Shown here piece after piece: positions 13,933-25,062 of a stretch of 58,028 nt of DNA. Every line of letters begins with the position of its first letter. Position 1 is the first letter of the stretch. The translations under genes and the position numbers were made by a program. This stretch comes from Candidatus Uhrbacteria bacterium GW2011_GWE2_46_68 (GTDB lineage Bacteria; Patescibacteriota; Patescibacteriia; UBA9934; GWF2-40-263): assembly GCA_001002765.1 (NCBI GenBank), contig LCMS01000008.1, positions 1 to 58,028 of the forward strand, written 5' to 3'. A model generated the notes under the pieces. The model did not search any database. It was not told the DNA's origin and saw nothing but the letters and a program-made list of their open reading frames with translations.

Positions 13933-13960
13933 TAAACCCCCTTAAAGTAAAGGGGGTTTA
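13933..13960. terminator. Hairpin TAAACCCCCTT/AAGGGGGTTTA, probable terminator
   Basis: An 11-bp perfect stem with 6-base loop directly after the giant gene and REP hairpin. It abuts the ATG of the transposase. There is no long T-run after the stem, so efficiency is uncertain; it may equally restrict transposase translation. Confidence 0.55.
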
Positions 13961-14664
13961 TGTTTATACCATACACGAAAAGGAAATCACTACGTTTGAA
14001 GGAATGGAATTATACCAATCCCGGTGCCTATTTTGTGACCATATGTACACAAAAGAGAGAAATGGTGTTTGGAGAAGTGAAGGATGGAGAAATGATAATG
14101 AATGTCATTGGGAAAATGGTTCATCACATATGGAATGAATTGCCAAACAAATTTCCAGACATTGTATTGGATGAATATATCGTCATGCCCGATCATTTCC
14201 ACGGAATCATATGGATCACCGCCGTAGGGGCCGGCCTTGTGCCGGCCCATGGTCTTGTGCCGGCCCAATGTACCGTGTCCGTCCGGAATGCAAAATCCGA
14301 TCATTGTTCAAATGATAATGGAAACATGACAATGGATACGGGGGTGGACACGAGGGCGGAGAACGTAGGGGATGGCCTTGTGCCATCCCTATGCACCGTG
14401 CCATCCCAAAACGTAGGGGTGGACACGAGGGCGGAGAACGTAGGGGTGGACACAAGGTCCACCCCTACGTTGGGTGATATCATTCGGGTTTTCAAATCAA
14501 TGACAACGGTCGAATATATTGTTGGTGTCAAAAAACAAAATTGGCCATCATTTTCATGCCGTCTCTGGCAACGCGGATATTATGATCACATTGTGCGCGA
14601 TGAAAATGATTTATCCCGTATCCGAGATTATATTCGTAATAATCCATCTGTATCCGACATATGA
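13960..14664 (+). CDS. REP-associated tyrosine transposase (RAYT, Y1_Tnp/IS200-like), with in-frame repeat insertions
   Basis: Y1 HUH-type nuclease of the RAYT group, which processes single-stranded REP hairpins. Visible: N-terminal NPGAYFVTICTQKRE, the HUH metal motif in VMPDHFHGIIWI (~residues 78-88), and the C-terminal LWQRGYYDHIVRDENDLSRI plus YIRNNP. Normal RAYTs run directly from the HUH block to a conserved KSMTT helix. Here ~80 residues (VGAGLVPAHGLVPAQ, VGVDTRAENVGVDTR and similar) interrupt, encoded by GTAGGGG-type hairpin repeats of the surrounding family, all in frame. The C-terminus is a few residues shorter than usual. Whether it is active is unknown; the fold could tolerate a loop insertion. 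Confidence 0.88.
   Translation: MFIPYTKRKSLRLKEWNYTNPGAYFVTICTQKREMVFGEVKDGEMIMNVIGKMVHHIWNELPNKFPDIVLDEYIVMPDHFHGIIWITAVGAGLVPAHGLVPAQCTVSVRNAKSDHCSNDNGNMTMDTGVDTRAENVGDGLVPSLCTVPSQNVGVDTRAENVGVDTRSTPTLGDIIRVFKSMTTVEYIVGVKKQNWPSFSCRLWQRGYYDHIVRDENDLSRIRDYIRNNPSVSDI
14224..14469. repeat. Cluster of REP-like hairpins and direct repeats inside the RAYT gene
   Basis: Contains GTAGGGGCCGGCCTTGTGCC with its complement (14224-14251), GTAGGGGATGGCCTTGTGCC-type (14365-14393), and a ~31-base direct repeat (GGGGTGGACACGAGGGCGGA...) at 14341-14371 and 14417-14447. It closes with a GTAGGGGTGGACACAAGGTC hairpin ending CCACCCCTAC. All lie in the transposase reading frame without stops. Confidence 0.85.
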
Positions 14665-16237: not shown

Positions 16238-17165
16238 TGGGGTCAGGTCTTTACCTTTTACCCTTTTTTATTTTTTTCGATTTTCCCCTTGCGATAAGAC
16301 TTACTGTTGTAGGGCTAAGATGCAAAAAATGAGCGATAGTACTACCGGAATAACCGCAACATTCGCGCGCAAAACGTATAGCACTGTTTCGTTCTTCTAT
16401 CCCCCGAATATCTCTAAATAGTTCTTCAAGACTCGGCCTGCCGATAATTTTTTCTGCGCGAGATACCTCCTTTTTTTCGGAAGATTTTTTTGCGATCCTC
16501 CATACTTCATGAACAAATTGCGGAGAACCAAGAACGATTCCATCTTCCTTTCTCATTTTAGGCATCTCTCTTTCCAGCCCCTCCATCACAAATGTTCTAT
16601 ACATTTTGTACGCTTTAGATAACTGGGAAGAAAAGTAGTCGAGCGTCCAATTTATTGTAAGCCAAGGAGGGGATTTTTTCAGTCCGGAGGTAAAACAAAA
16701 ATTGCTCCATGGCCATTTTTCCGGAGACATGACCAAACCAGACCTTACAGGATTTAGTACGACATATCGGGACACCTCGAGCAAATATGATTCTTTTTCA
16801 ACAACAAATGCTTTAAATCTTCCTTGGAATACATGCCCAGTTGTGTTGTGTCTTTTGTTGAACCTTTGTGTGTAAATGCCGTTAAGATCACGCATACCGG
16901 AGGAAAGATTCGTCTCGGGGGTTTCTATAATCAAATGGTAATGATTATTCATGAGGCAATAGGCGTGGCAAATCCAATGATATGTTTTGATGACGGATGT
17001 CAGAGTTTGTAGAAAAATTTTTCGGTCTGTATTGTCAAGAAAGATGTCTTGTTTTCTGTTTCCTCTAACAGTAATGTGATAAATCGCTCCTGGATAAATG
17101 ATACGCAATGGTCGTGTCATAGTAGTAACAGTATAGCAGAGGTAAAAGGTAAAGACCTGACCCCA
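16238..17165 (-). mobile_element. RAYT/IS200-like element with 25-bp terminal inverted repeats
   Basis: The ends at 16238-16262 and 17141-17165 are a perfect 25-bp inverted repeat beginning TGGGGTCAGGTCTTTACC. They enclose a single Y1 transposase gene. I see no clear target-site duplication (left flank TCAAAC, right flank ATGACC), as expected for Y1 elements, which do not make them. Confidence 0.85.
16251..17120 (-). CDS. Y1_Tnp (Transposase_17) family transposase
   Basis: HUH single-strand transposase of the RAYT/TnpA_REP group, 289 aa. N-terminal RPLRIIYPGAIYHITVRGNRKQ, HUH motif in LMNNHYHLIIETP (~residues 55-67), then the helix with the probable catalytic Tyr in DLNGIYTQRFNKRH and GHVFQGRFKA, followed by RYVVLNPVRSGLV. 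The C-terminal extension contains a DnaA/HTH-like stretch (ECCGYSGSTIAHFLHLSPTTVSLI) seen in the long RAYT subgroup. The stop codon lies within the left inverted repeat. It is of a different subgroup from the 13960 transposase. Confidence 0.9.
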   Translation of the reverse strand: MTRPLRIIYPGAIYHITVRGNRKQDIFLDNTDRKIFLQTLTSVIKTYHWICHAYCLMNNHYHLIIETPETNLSSGMRDLNGIYTQRFNKRHNTTGHVFQGRFKAFVVEKESYLLEVSRYVVLNPVRSGLVMSPEKWPWSNFCFTSGLKKSPPWLTINWTLDYFSSQLSKAYKMYRTFVMEGLEREMPKMRKEDGIVLGSPQFVHEVWRIAKKSSEKKEVSRAEKIIGRPSLEELFRDIRGIEERNSAIRFARECCGYSGSTIAHFLHLSPTTVSLIARGKSKKIKKGKR

Positions 17166-20382: not shown

Positions 20383-21645
20383 ATGATTGATCCAAAACTT
20401 CTCATTGATGCGCCGGAACTTGTTGTTGCAAACAACCGTAAACGGCATAAAAATCTTGATATCGCAAGCGTTTCTTCCCTGTCTTCTTCACGCAAAACAT
20501 TGCTCGAAAAAGTTGAAAACCTACGAGCCAAAGCAAACGAGATCGCTGGCCGTATTCCAAAAACCGATGCAAACGATCGGCCTACTTTGATCGAAGAAGG
20601 TCGCCGTATCAAAGAAGAAGGAAAGATCCTCGAGGTCGAGCTTCAAAAAATTGAAGCCGAGTTTGAAGCAGCATGGCGCCAATATCCCAACATTTTGCGT
20701 GAGGATGTTCCCGAAGGCACAGGTGAGGAAGGTAATCAAGTCATTCGAACTTTTGGAACGCCTCCAACTTTTCCATTCACCCCCAAAGATCATTTAGAAA
20801 TCGGAGAAAAGCATGGATGGATTGATATGGAGCGTGCAGCCAAGGTTTCCGGCGCACGCTTTGCCTATCTCAAAGGTGAGATGGTTGAGCTTGAACTCGC
20901 ACTTTTGCAATATACGTTTAGTACCTTGATCAAAGAAGGATTCACCCCGGTTTTTCCTCCACACATAATTTTTACCAAAGCCATGGGAGCTATGGGATAT
21001 TTGGAACATGGGGGAGAGGAAGAAGTGTATCATCTCAAAAACGATGACACGGTGTTGATCGGAACTTCCGAGCAAGCCATGGGGCCCATGCTCACAGATG
21101 AGATGCTTGCAGAAGATGAGTTGCCATTGCGTTTTGCCGCATTTTCTCCTTGTTATCGTCGAGAGGCGGGAAGTTATGGAAAAGATTTGCGCGGCATTTT
21201 ACGTATGCACCAGTTTGATAAAATTGAGATGTTCAGTTTTACCGTACCCGAAGTGTCCGATGCCGAGCATGAGTTTTTGCTTGGTGCGCAAGAGAAATTG
21301 ATGCAAGGGCTCGGACTTCCATATCGTGTGATGAAACTTTGCGCCGGCGACATCGGTGCACCTTCGGCCCGCACCTATGATATTGAAACATGGATGCCTT
21401 CACAAAACACCTATCGCGAAACGCATTCCACCTCAAACACAACTGACTATCAGACACGACGATTGAATATTCGTGTGCGACGAGAGGGAAAAAATGCGCT
21501 TGCCCACGCACTCAACGGAACTGCCTTTGCCATGGGGCGCATCATGATCGCTCTGATCGAAAATAATCAGCAAGAAGATGGGAGTGTAAAGGTGCCAGAA
21601 GTATTGCAACCTTGGATAGGGAAAGATCAAATCGGAGTAAAGTAA
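20383..21645 (+). CDS. serS: Seryl-tRNA synthetase
   Basis: Charges tRNA-Ser (two tRNA-Ser genes lie at 35.1-35.4 kb). Class II enzyme, 420 aa. The N-terminal ~110 residues form the long helical hairpin that grips the tRNA variable arm (SSSRKTLLEKVENLRAKANEIAG...). Catalytic blocks are the TSEQAM Ser-binding stretch, motif 2 FSPCYRREAGSYGKD with LRMHQFDKIEMF, and motif 3 ALNGTAFAMGRIMIALIENNQ. The start MIDPKLLIDAPE is slightly longer than the usual MLDxKLIREN. It has no obvious Shine-Dalgarno and is followed by an intrinsic terminator. Confidence 0.95.
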   Translation: MIDPKLLIDAPELVVANNRKRHKNLDIASVSSLSSSRKTLLEKVENLRAKANEIAGRIPKTDANDRPTLIEEGRRIKEEGKILEVELQKIEAEFEAAWRQYPNILREDVPEGTGEEGNQVIRTFGTPPTFPFTPKDHLEIGEKHGWIDMERAAKVSGARFAYLKGEMVELELALLQYTFSTLIKEGFTPVFPPHIIFTKAMGAMGYLEHGGEEEVYHLKNDDTVLIGTSEQAMGPMLTDEMLAEDELPLRFAAFSPCYRREAGSYGKDLRGILRMHQFDKIEMFSFTVPEVSDAEHEFLLGAQEKLMQGLGLPYRVMKLCAGDIGAPSARTYDIETWMPSQNTYRETHSTSNTTDYQTRRLNIRVRREGKNALAHALNGTAFAMGRIMIALIENNQQEDGSVKVPEVLQPWIGKDQIGVK

Positions 21646-21685: not shown

Positions 21686-21714
21686 GTTATCCACAATTTA
21701 TCATATAAAAACCG

Positions 21715-21742
21715 TTGACTTTAGCAAAAAATACCGTATTCT
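21715..21742 (+). promoter_or_regulatory. Promoter of the large ncRNA
   Basis: TTGACT (21715-21720), 16-base spacer, TATTCT (21737-21742). Predicted transcription start near 21749, exactly where the first helix of the RNA begins. Confidence 0.75.
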
Positions 21743-21748
21743 GGATTA

Positions 21749-22415
21749 TTGTCGAGGGCAGGTAGGCTGTTCCCCGGAAGAGGATGCAGCCCTACATCGA
21801 CAACACGGACGCTCTTGTCCACAGTGGGATAATTCTCGCCAAAACAGATCAAGGCGCGCAAGCACCAGAAATCTGTTATGCGAGGAAAACAGACAGGTAA
21901 AGCCCCGGAGAGTCCGGGACACGAAGCCGGTTTGGCAAGAGGTTCAGTGTTTTTCTTGGCCGAGAAGGCCACGGATGTACGAGAGTCGAAACGGTTGTTA
22001 GCGGTACGGTCACGATGGCAAGTGAGAGACCCCCCGGGTCCCCAAGTGCCTCAAGCGTCTTCTCCAAGATATCCCGCGGGGGTGAACTAGGATAAAGTCG
22101 CGACCAAGACTCTCCGTGACGTAAACACGCGCCACGTTTGCAGCTTTATGCGAAAACCCTCCAGGGGTGTCGGCAACCACAGCTGCCAACTGGACTGTGA
22201 GCTTCACACAAACTGTGTGAGCGGATGGCCCTACACAGGCCGACCGCATGCACAGGAAGCGCACCCATCCGTGTGCGCTCCCCGCATCTTGTCGTCGTTG
22301 ACGTCCTCCCCTCTCTCCTTTTGGGACGACGGAAGCTTCGCTTGGCGGGGAGCGCCTGCCCAACCTTTGTTCCTTTTCCCGACCGTGCGGCACCCCAGGT
22401 GCCGCTTTTCTTTTT
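21749..22415 (+). ncRNA. Large (~665 nt) structured non-coding RNA, family not recognised
   Basis: No credible ORF, ribosome site or conserved protein here, yet the region has a promoter, a terminator and dense base pairing. Helices I can trace: TTGTCGA (21749) with TCGACAA (21797) enclosing GTAGG-CTG/CAG-C-CCTAC; AACAGAT (21843) with ATCTGTT (21871); CCCGGA/TCCGGG (21904/21913); TGGCC/GGCCA (21957/21967); a long-range pairing CACG+GAGAGTC (21970-21987) with GACTCTC+CGTG (22108-22118); CACACA/TGTGTG (22205/22214) flanked by GCT/AGC; GCGG-GGCC/GGCC-CCGC (22221-22247); AGCGCAC/GTGCGCT (22258/22273); GTCGTC/GACGAC (22291/22325). RNase P hallmarks (GAGGAAAGTCC, ACAGAACCCGG) and tmRNA hallmarks (TTCGAC near the 5' end, CCA end, tag ORF) are absent, as are group I/II intron cores. 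Much longer than 6S or SRP RNA. Role unknown. Confidence 0.7.
22387..22414 (+). terminator. Terminator at the 3' end of the large ncRNA
   Basis: GCGGCACC-CCA-GGTGCCGC (8-bp perfect GC-rich stem) followed by TTTTCTTTTT. Confidence 0.9.
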
Positions 22416-23076
22416 GTGGAATAAGTCCCATGGGCACCATAAGACCTATCATCGAGCAAAATTTATCCACAACAAAATGTTTTTTTCCTTCAACACAAAA
22501 GAGTTTGGCACGCTTTTTGTGTGCAGTTTTATTTTTTTGTCCGAATCATGCAAACAAAGATTCCTTTCCATATTATTTGTTCGGCGAAAAAGGAGAATGC
22601 ATTTTTGCAAAATATGTCAGCAGACGGGAAACACAATCACTTTTTTTCAAAAATAGAGAAACGATGAGAAAATTTTTTTCATTTTTGTTTTAGATACTGT
22701 TGATCGACCTCAACAAAATTCATAGCTCAACCAAGCTAAAAAAGTATTGACCCATGTTCAAATGTTTGATGATCTAAGGTTAGATCGTCTGCGCAAAAAA
22801 TTATCTGCCTTACGCGAACGGAAAGATGCACATGTGAGGTATCGAACATCTTTCTATCGCAAACGCGGAACACTTGCGCACAAAGGAGGGGAGGGGCGAT
22901 CCGACCAAAACGAAGAAAAGGGGATGAAAGAGCATGCGGGGGTTTGCTCCGTCATCCCCCTTCGCTTCCCTCATAAGCGGTGCGTCGAATATTTTCTGAC
23001 AAGACAGGAGGCCTCGTGTGTTGTCAGAGATGGTCGATGTCCGGCCTCTCGCGTTCATTCACAAGCGAGGTTTCCC
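22416..23076. other. Long AT-rich leader region before the M23 lipoprotein gene
   Basis: About 660 bases without a supported gene. The first ~330 bases are T/A-rich and low in complexity. An inverted repeat GATCTAA-GG-TTAGATC lies at 22771-22786, just after TTGACC at 22748, and may mark a regulated promoter. The ORF-track frame running from 22747 to 23076 is charged, unlike any signal region, and precedes a clean lipoprotein start, so I treat it as non-coding. Confidence 0.45.
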
Positions 23077-25062
23077 ATGTCCGCGCAACTGTTCCGCATT
23101 TTTTTCTCCATGTGCCTGTGCGTTTTTTCTCTCATGGGTTGTCCGCCCGCATTTTTCATGGATGATGATACGGCAGAGGATGCCTATGGCGACGGCAATC
23201 GCGGCGGCGGTCTTGGCACCATTCATCTCCCGTTTGCCCAAGGTGGCACGTCGAAATGCGTGCAAGGAGCCTATGGTTCCTACAGTCATGATTTCGAGTC
23301 CACCATGTACGATCTTGATTTCGATACGTCAAACACCGGGGATGAAGAAGTCTATGCGCCTGTTTCCGGCACGGTTCATGTGCACATGGAAAGCGCGACC
23401 ACGAATTTCGGTTATCACGTCAATATCGATCTGGGCGACGGCACCTATGTTGTCCTGGCTCACCTTGCCGACATCTTTGTCCTGGACGGGGATGAGGTGA
23501 CGGCTGGTCAATTGTTGGGATACGAAGGGTGTACCGGAAACTGCACGGGTGATCATGTGCATATCGGTCTTCATGAAGGTGATGCCGATCACGAAGCGCA
23601 GTATGGCACCTCGATTCCGACCGAGTACTACTTTGCCGATGCCACTGCTGACGGATCGTATGAGACGATCTCAAGTGTGGATGTGATCTGCGGGATCCGC
23701 AGCGAAGGGGATCCAGAGGAAGGACACACCTATCGCTCTGCGCTTCCGGTTTCGCTCTGGCATCCAAACGGTTCCCTGGTTAAAACAGGGGATAATGCCA
23801 AGACCTATCTGATCGAAGACGGCAAAGCCCGATGGATCGAAACCCAGGATATTTTTTGGAGCTTTGGGTATGATTTTGACAATGTTTCCACGATTTCTGA
23901 CGAAGAGCTTGCTTGCCTTGGTGAAGGCGAGACGCTCGAAGACACCGGAAGTGTGGAAGCGTTTTTGGACGATGACGATGATATCTGGCTCTTTGTGAAT
24001 ACCGGAAGCGAACGATTCCGTATTTGGGTGCGAGAGGAAGGATCTGACGCTGTGCTCGCTTCCTGGGGACTTCGCTACACACAAAGCGATCCGCCTGCGC
24101 ATCTCCAAAACAGTGACAGTCAATGGACTTCCTATACACCAGCTAGCGGCTATGCCGAGTTGCGTGATGGTTCGCTTGTCAAAGAATCCGATGCCTCAGA
24201 CGTGTACTTCGTGACTGATGGCATCGCGCTTCCCATCGTTGACTGGTCCACCTATTTGCTCATGGGCTTTTATGCCCACGAGATCATCACTCTGGAACCC
24301 GATGAACTTGCCGAAATTCAAGAAGATGTCGGTAGCTGTCGGGCCGGAGTGTGGTGTTTGGATGAGGAGGCTGTGACCACTTGCGGTGGAGGTTTGGATC
24401 TCGGCAGCGGTGGAGATTATGGTGGTGATGATGAGGGGGAGGAAGAAGAAGATGACGATGAAGATGACAGTGAAGATCCGCCTGAAGAAGAGGAAGATCT
24501 TCCCGAAGATGAGGATGAGGATGATCCGCCCGAGTATGACGATGAAGATACGGACGAAGAAGGAGATAGCGGGTTTGAGTACGATGACAGCAATCCCTGT
24601 GATGGTGAGGATGCTTGTGTGGAAGATATGGATGGCGATGGTCAAGATGAAACCTTGATGATGGCCGACCATATGTGGCTTACCTCATGGATTGATGGGG
24701 AGCCCACATACGTCTATGCCAATGCGTCCGGATGTTTTGATGGAGTGTTGAGCACTTCCGATCTTTTCGAAAGTGATCCCTCGACAGGCTATTACCTCAT
24801 CGACTTCTCGTCTTTCGTGGCCGGGTGCACAAGCGAACTTTCGCTCATCAGTTCGGTTGGTACGGACGGACATGATCCGCAAAGTGATATGAGCAACTGG
24901 TATTGGTGGCAAAATGCAGATTTTTGCTCGCAAGGTCACGATTTGTGTGAGCTTGAAAACAATGGAACTTCTTGGGAAGAGTGGCTCATCCGCGTGTCAT
25001 GGATTCCGTCCTATGGCCTTTTGGCAGATGGAAACGGATACACCTCAAACGACGAACTTTAA
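23077..25062 (+). CDS. M23 (LytM-like) metallopeptidase lipoprotein
   Basis: Exported lipid-anchored protein, ~661 aa, with a peptidoglycan endopeptidase-like domain. Signal peptide QLFRIFFSMCLCVFSLMGC carries lipobox LMGC. The M23 domain (~residues 50-190) shows the duplex of H-D-F-E...YDLDF, VYAPVSGTVHVHM, GDGTYVVLAHLADI and the C-terminal zinc motif GDHVHIGLHEG. Beyond it are repeat-like W-rich segments, a very acidic linker (EEEEDDDEDDSED region, ~450-510), a DMDGDGQDE Ca-binding loop and a Cys-containing terminal domain. The start is set at the Met preceding the signal peptide, with GCGAGG upstream. Could remodel its own or a host cell wall. A terminator follows. Confidence 0.85.
   Translation: MSAQLFRIFFSMCLCVFSLMGCPPAFFMDDDTAEDAYGDGNRGGGLGTIHLPFAQGGTSKCVQGAYGSYSHDFESTMYDLDFDTSNTGDEEVYAPVSGTVHVHMESATTNFGYHVNIDLGDGTYVVLAHLADIFVLDGDEVTAGQLLGYEGCTGNCTGDHVHIGLHEGDADHEAQYGTSIPTEYYFADATADGSYETISSVDVICGIRSEGDPEEGHTYRSALPVSLWHPNGSLVKTGDNAKTYLIEDGKARWIETQDIFWSFGYDFDNVSTISDEELACLGEGETLEDTGSVEAFLDDDDDIWLFVNTGSERFRIWVREEGSDAVLASWGLRYTQSDPPAHLQNSDSQWTSYTPASGYAELRDGSLVKESDASDVYFVTDGIALPIVDWSTYLLMGFYAHEIITLEPDELAEIQEDVGSCRAGVWCLDEEAVTTCGGGLDLGSGGDYGGDDEGEEEEDDDEDDSEDPPEEEEDLPEDEDEDDPPEYDDEDTDEEGDSGFEYDDSNPCDGEDACVEDMDGDGQDETLMMADHMWLTSWIDGEPTYVYANASGCFDGVLSTSDLFESDPSTGYYLIDFSSFVAGCTSELSLISSVGTDGHDPQSDMSNWYWWQNADFCSQGHDLCELENNGTSWEEWLIRVSWIPSYGLLADGNGYTSNDEL

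Follow-up and report, generated by a model that had tools for sequence, protein, structure and literature searches.

What lies between serS and the M23 lipoprotein gene of this genome, and is it a gene in its own right? The window, meaning the whole stretch of 58,028 nt that was analyzed, is contig C8 of a 1.06 Mb genome, and its closest relatives by serS are nearly all Candidatus Uhrbacteria. Our best explanation, which we hold to be probable, is that the intergenic stretch is a free-standing structured non-coding RNA gene of about 665 nt, most likely of a fast-evolving DnaA-box class in Uhrbacteria (Patescibacteria). The features on which this reading draws are collected in Table 1.

Table 1. 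The proposed RNA gene, its neighbours and its predicted structural elements, in window positions.
Feature	Position	Strand	Basis or remark
serS	20383-21645		order serS-M23 kept in Uhrbacteria
DnaA box TTATCCACA, perfect, upstream of promoter	21687-21695	+	ends 19 nt before the -35 element
Promoter TTGACT-16-TATTCT, 9/12 consensus	21715-21742	+	position relative to RNA start
Structured non-coding RNA gene, about 665 nt	21749-22415	+	fold, no coding signal
5' hairpin domain closed by UUGUCGA/UCGACAA (21749-21755 with 21797-21803)	21749-21803	+	starts at predicted RNA start
Candidate 5'-3' pairing, GGGCAGG (21756-21762) with CCUGCCC (22355-22361)	21756-22361	+	probability 0.94, model without pseudoknots
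Branched domain AACACGGAC-CUCUUGU / GCAAGAG-GUUC-GUGUU	21802-21951	+	strongest-folded 150-nt segment, z -5.9
Domain closed by long-range helix GAGAGUC/GACUCUC (21981-21987 with 22108-22114)	21981-22114	+	pairing probability 0.99
Long hairpin CUGUGUG.GCGG.UGGCC / GGCCG.CCGC.UGCACAG	22213-22255	+	predicted fold
Hairpin closed by GCUCCCCGC/GCGGGGAGC	22277-22353	+	predicted fold
Intrinsic terminator GCGGCACC/GGTGCCGC plus T-run	22387-22415	+	
Second DnaA box, 3' of terminator	22463-22471	+	
M23 lipoprotein gene	about 23077-25062		order serS-M23 kept in Uhrbacteria

Coding signal, fold and ends of the stretch

The stretch carries no recognizable protein gene. Its period-3 power was 0.9, compared with 4-8 for serS and 11-21 for the M23 gene, and no Pfam family was found in any of the six frames, which supports the claim of the original prediction that no frame encodes a plausible protein. 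That prediction, a large structured RNA gene of unknown family, would have been refuted by a match to a known family. No such match appeared in the Rfam covariance-model search of the window RNA or with the family models of RNase P RNA and tmRNA. The RNase P RNA and tmRNA of this genome are located elsewhere, on contigs C25 and C17. With neither an Rfam hit nor a reading frame, a large structured RNA gene of unknown family remains the best reading. A CsrB-type GGA sponge was considered and rejected, as GGA is not in excess in the window RNA.

The predicted minimum free energy of the RNA is -273.4 kcal/mol, which gives a z of -4.54 against 200 dinucleotide shuffles, none of which folded as low (0/200); background 667-nt segments of the same DNA had a mean z of -0.9 (sd 1.5). 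The folding z is not distinctive by itself, because inverted repeats of REP type at other sites of the genome reach stronger scores, and folding score as the sole criterion was dropped for this reason. As a separate observation, two genes of the window (13960-14664 and 16251-17120) resemble REP-associated Y1 transposases, and REP-like repeats GTAGGGGTGGACACRAGG within the first one show strong folding on both strands.

Besides the long-range helix, many others in the window RNA have pairing probabilities above 0.9. In the full-length fold, the 5' helix is in competition with an alternative 5'-3' pairing. The GGGCAGG/CCUGCCC pairing is a model-based candidate and would make a pseudoknot if the 5' hairpin forms too. 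Thus the closing helix at the predicted start (with the competition just described), the long-range GAGAGTC/GACTCTC pair and the multiple strong helices proposed earlier from the sequence were all recovered, as were the proposed promoter and the GC-rich terminator. The numbers of such sites in the region are near chance (7 promoters for 5.9 expected, 7 terminators for 5.6), so these two elements count as evidence by their position alone.

Could the stretch be GC-rich intergenic DNA with inverted repeats and no functional RNA, such as a degraded mobile element or a pseudogene with fortuitous promoter-like and terminator-like sites? The genome has many REP-type repeats whose folding scores are stronger, the reverse strand of the stretch folds equally strongly, and the sites occur at chance density. 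However, the stretch contains no internal repeat families, has no second genomic copy and holds no protein remnant in six frames. Furthermore, promoter and terminator stand in register at its two ends, and the DnaA box-promoter described below is unique in the genome. We regard this explanation as very unlikely.

The RNA immediately precedes the M23 gene and shares its strand, which also raises the idea of a cis-acting leader or attenuator of that gene. This idea is already contradicted and has hardly any standing left, since the RNA ends in a terminator of its own, and the M23 gene is served by a separate promoter (22747 on) and a conserved leader hairpin (22980-23041), both present in relatives without the window RNA. 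Specifically, serS and the M23 gene are only about 380-700 nt apart in relatives, and this gap contains the promoter and leader of the M23 gene. The window RNA is an additional unit besides the M23 leader, with its own promoter and terminator. The leader hairpin just upstream of the M23 gene (loci L037-L045 and L096 in relatives) is an observation in its own right. It has a conserved AGRYCT loop, is kept in 10 Uhrbacteria with compensated changes in 10 of 14 predicted pairs, and looks like a new cis-regulatory leader for M23 and the following secretion-type genes.

Homologue searches and the DnaA box-promoter

BLAST detected no homologue of the window RNA among 60 relatives, among 73 genomes from the order, among 381 from the class, or in phages and plasmids, and the genome itself has no second copy. 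As a control, the same BLAST method recovered this genome's RNase P RNA in 52 of the 60 relatives. Hence the window RNA is restricted to its lineage or else evolves far faster than RNase P RNA, and it has no covariation of its own because no alignable homologue is available. Two single-sequence covariance models, built on two domains, revealed no homologue, their one weak match being a bare hairpin, and exact 16-mers of the window RNA occur at chance level in IMG/VR. Short matches in uvrC of G012, beside a reverse-transcriptase locus of G046, in G041 and in G009 were set aside as chance. The nearest serS relative, G007 (747 kb examined), yielded no prmC, box-promoter or model match. A full-text literature search of incomplete coverage turned up no account of an RNA like this in Patescibacteria.

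Two side observations came from these relatives. Many G007 contigs (L284, L288, L295, L307, L308, L317, L320) have a common terminal sequence, TTATACACCACCTTGTTTAGTATAGAGCC, a repeat at which the assembly probably broke. In G046, contig 56 (L118, 480-3022) carries a reverse transcriptase together with a target gene whose end recurs as a mutated repeat, and this locus looks like a diversity-generating retroelement.

The DnaA boxes at the RNA gene were absent from the original prediction. A DnaA-box-like sequence, TTATNCACA, lies shortly 3' of serS in 8 of 12 relatives (L037-L039, L041, L042, L045, L046, L096); its counterpart in the window is at 21687. One chance BLAST match exposed a second large folded intergenic region with the same layout, in G012. 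We sought the pattern TTATCCACA-N(2-30)-TTGAC-N(16-19)-TANNNT across the order and found this box-promoter in 40 of 73 genomes, about once per genome, with no match to a reversed-pattern control. The single match in the window's genome is at the window RNA, and the single match in G012 is at the G012 RNA. These two RNAs have no sequence similarity.

The sequence downstream of the match was read at 30 loci returned by the search and at 20 further loci, and many box-promoters were found to lead into protein genes. In several Uhrbacteria the pattern precedes a gene of about 145 aa, read as mraZ, and in several it precedes a gene for a small acidic cysteine-rich protein (loci L175, L177, L179, L190, L193, L195; L182, L184, L186). 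These genes possibly form a DnaA regulon. Since protein genes follow it too, the box-promoter is not specific to large RNAs.

Putative large RNAs in relatives and the place of the window RNA

In 11 other genomes, from six other genera, the box-promoter starts a non-coding folded stretch with its own terminator (G012, G001, G019, G003, G021, G030, G009, G024, G006, G011, G063). The lengths are 560-1219 nt and the folding z values -3.7 to -6.8. These RNAs were picked by the author's judgement (no coding signal, no plausible gene), without a formal background rate. Eight genomes (G001, G019, G003, G021, G030, G009, G011, G063) have the RNA immediately 5' of prmC. On its other side, prfA precedes the RNA in G024, in G006 and, by reading of a shifted frame, in G019; in most other genomes the preceding gene is a nucleotidyl transferase gene. 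The G012 RNA is not in the prfA/prmC neighbourhood.

Three of the RNAs, from genus g4 (L207, L208 and L194), are 66-77% identical and could be compared pair by pair. Here, 25 of 172 predicted pairs are doubly compensated, compared with 12.6 +/- 2.6 in shuffles (0/500), and sliding the partners left 2-5 doubly changed pairs. The covariation test called for in the original prediction was thus passed by RNAs of another genus with the same type of promoter. The structure was derived from the same three-sequence alignment, so the excess is partly built in.

Furthermore, the 12 RNAs, including that of the window, contain 74 GNRA/UUCG hairpins on the transcribed strand where 21.6 were expected, and 20 on the reverse strand where 22.9 were expected. 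The asymmetry is seen in most genera, and the counts are not fully independent because the g4 RNAs are related. This asymmetry argues for selection acting on the RNA as transcribed, independently of the promoter. There is little or no excess in L188 and L173 (p 0.1 for L173).

Tetraloops were the only k-mer motif shared among the RNAs, and an Rfam search of the relatives' large RNAs gave no match. Even within a genus, identity is low: 44% for G001/G019, which share the locus, 50% for G011/G063 and 42% for G006/G024. RNAs of different genera generally do not align. Since copies within a genus barely align, missing BLAST matches are to be expected for the window RNA even if it is a member. Taken together, the 11 relatives' RNAs suggest a new, fast-changing RNA class that is unseen by sequence searches. 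The class is probably linked to DnaA, for which there are no binding or transcription data.

The window RNA meets the layout of this class, namely a DnaA box 2-30 nt before a TTGAC promoter, a folded non-coding stretch of 560-1220 nt and its own terminator. Its first 85 nt resemble those of L188 (genus g12), with an anchored alignment that scored above all 300 shuffles (z 3.2). Both RNAs carry TTAYYGTCGAG close to their start, followed after some 50-60 nt by TCGACAAC. This weak similarity in sequence was the best among 11 comparisons and is for that reason only suggestive.

A lineage-specific orphan must be weighed here: a genuine structured RNA with no kinship to the relatives' DnaA-box RNAs, whose promoter layout is convergent or part of a general DnaA regulon. 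The locus of the window RNA differs from that of most of the class, as prmC directly follows prfA in its genome with no RNA between and the RNA stands elsewhere. Its tetraloops show no excess (1 for 1.3 expected), no covariance-model match and, apart from the weak 5' similarity to L188, no link in sequence joins it to the relatives' RNAs, and the box-promoter serves protein genes too. Yet that promoter occurs only once in the genome, at this RNA, the 5' end does resemble L188, and failure to align is normal for the class, even inside a genus. We consider an orphan unlikely. Membership of the window RNA in the class is unproven, and we judge it likely.

Proposed role and comparison with known RNAs

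As far as sequence can tell, the case consists of a putative promoter and terminator, the non-coding character, the predicted fold, the unique box-promoter and analogous RNAs with covariation in relatives. One way of joining these is a DnaA-timed large RNA, present about once per Uhrbacteria genome, that has kept its promoter, size, architecture and often its locus while its sequence changed, and that was relocated in the window's genome. We put this forward tentatively, at somewhat less than even odds. In such a scheme, DnaA would bind the box and activate or repress the promoter, and the RNA level would then follow the replication cycle; both steps are inferred. The RNA may act in trans as a folded scaffold or a protein-binding RNA, a conjecture in which the molecular job is a guess. 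This role is favoured over base-pairing with targets because of the large size, the branched fold and the tolerance of sequence change.

Classes of structured RNA usually come to light through covariation guided by sequence. One that retains its promoter, size and fold without a conserved sequence would systematically escape detection, and the box-promoter offers a simple signature for finding further members. If the link to DnaA is true, a large RNA would be tied to replication control in reduced genomes.

Among known systems, CcnA of Caulobacter is described as a cell-cycle non-coding RNA that modulates the regulators CtrA and GcrA (PMC8959179). It may serve as an analogy of working only, a non-coding RNA tied to cell-cycle regulators, and no sequence or family link is claimed. 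RNase P RNA and tmRNA are, like the window RNA, large, structured and single-copy, but RNase P RNA is recognizable by BLAST in 52/60 relatives and the window RNA in none. A further comparison is with OLE, GOLLD and ROOL (PMC12286853, cryo-EM), which are also large, branched, non-coding, free-standing genes of unclear function. The likeness to these RNAs that had been pointed out in the original prediction stands for size and style and does not extend to family, as neither the window RNA nor the related RNAs gave a covariance-model match to them. Unlike OLE, GOLLD and ROOL, the window RNA has a DnaA-box promoter and a sequence that is hardly conserved.
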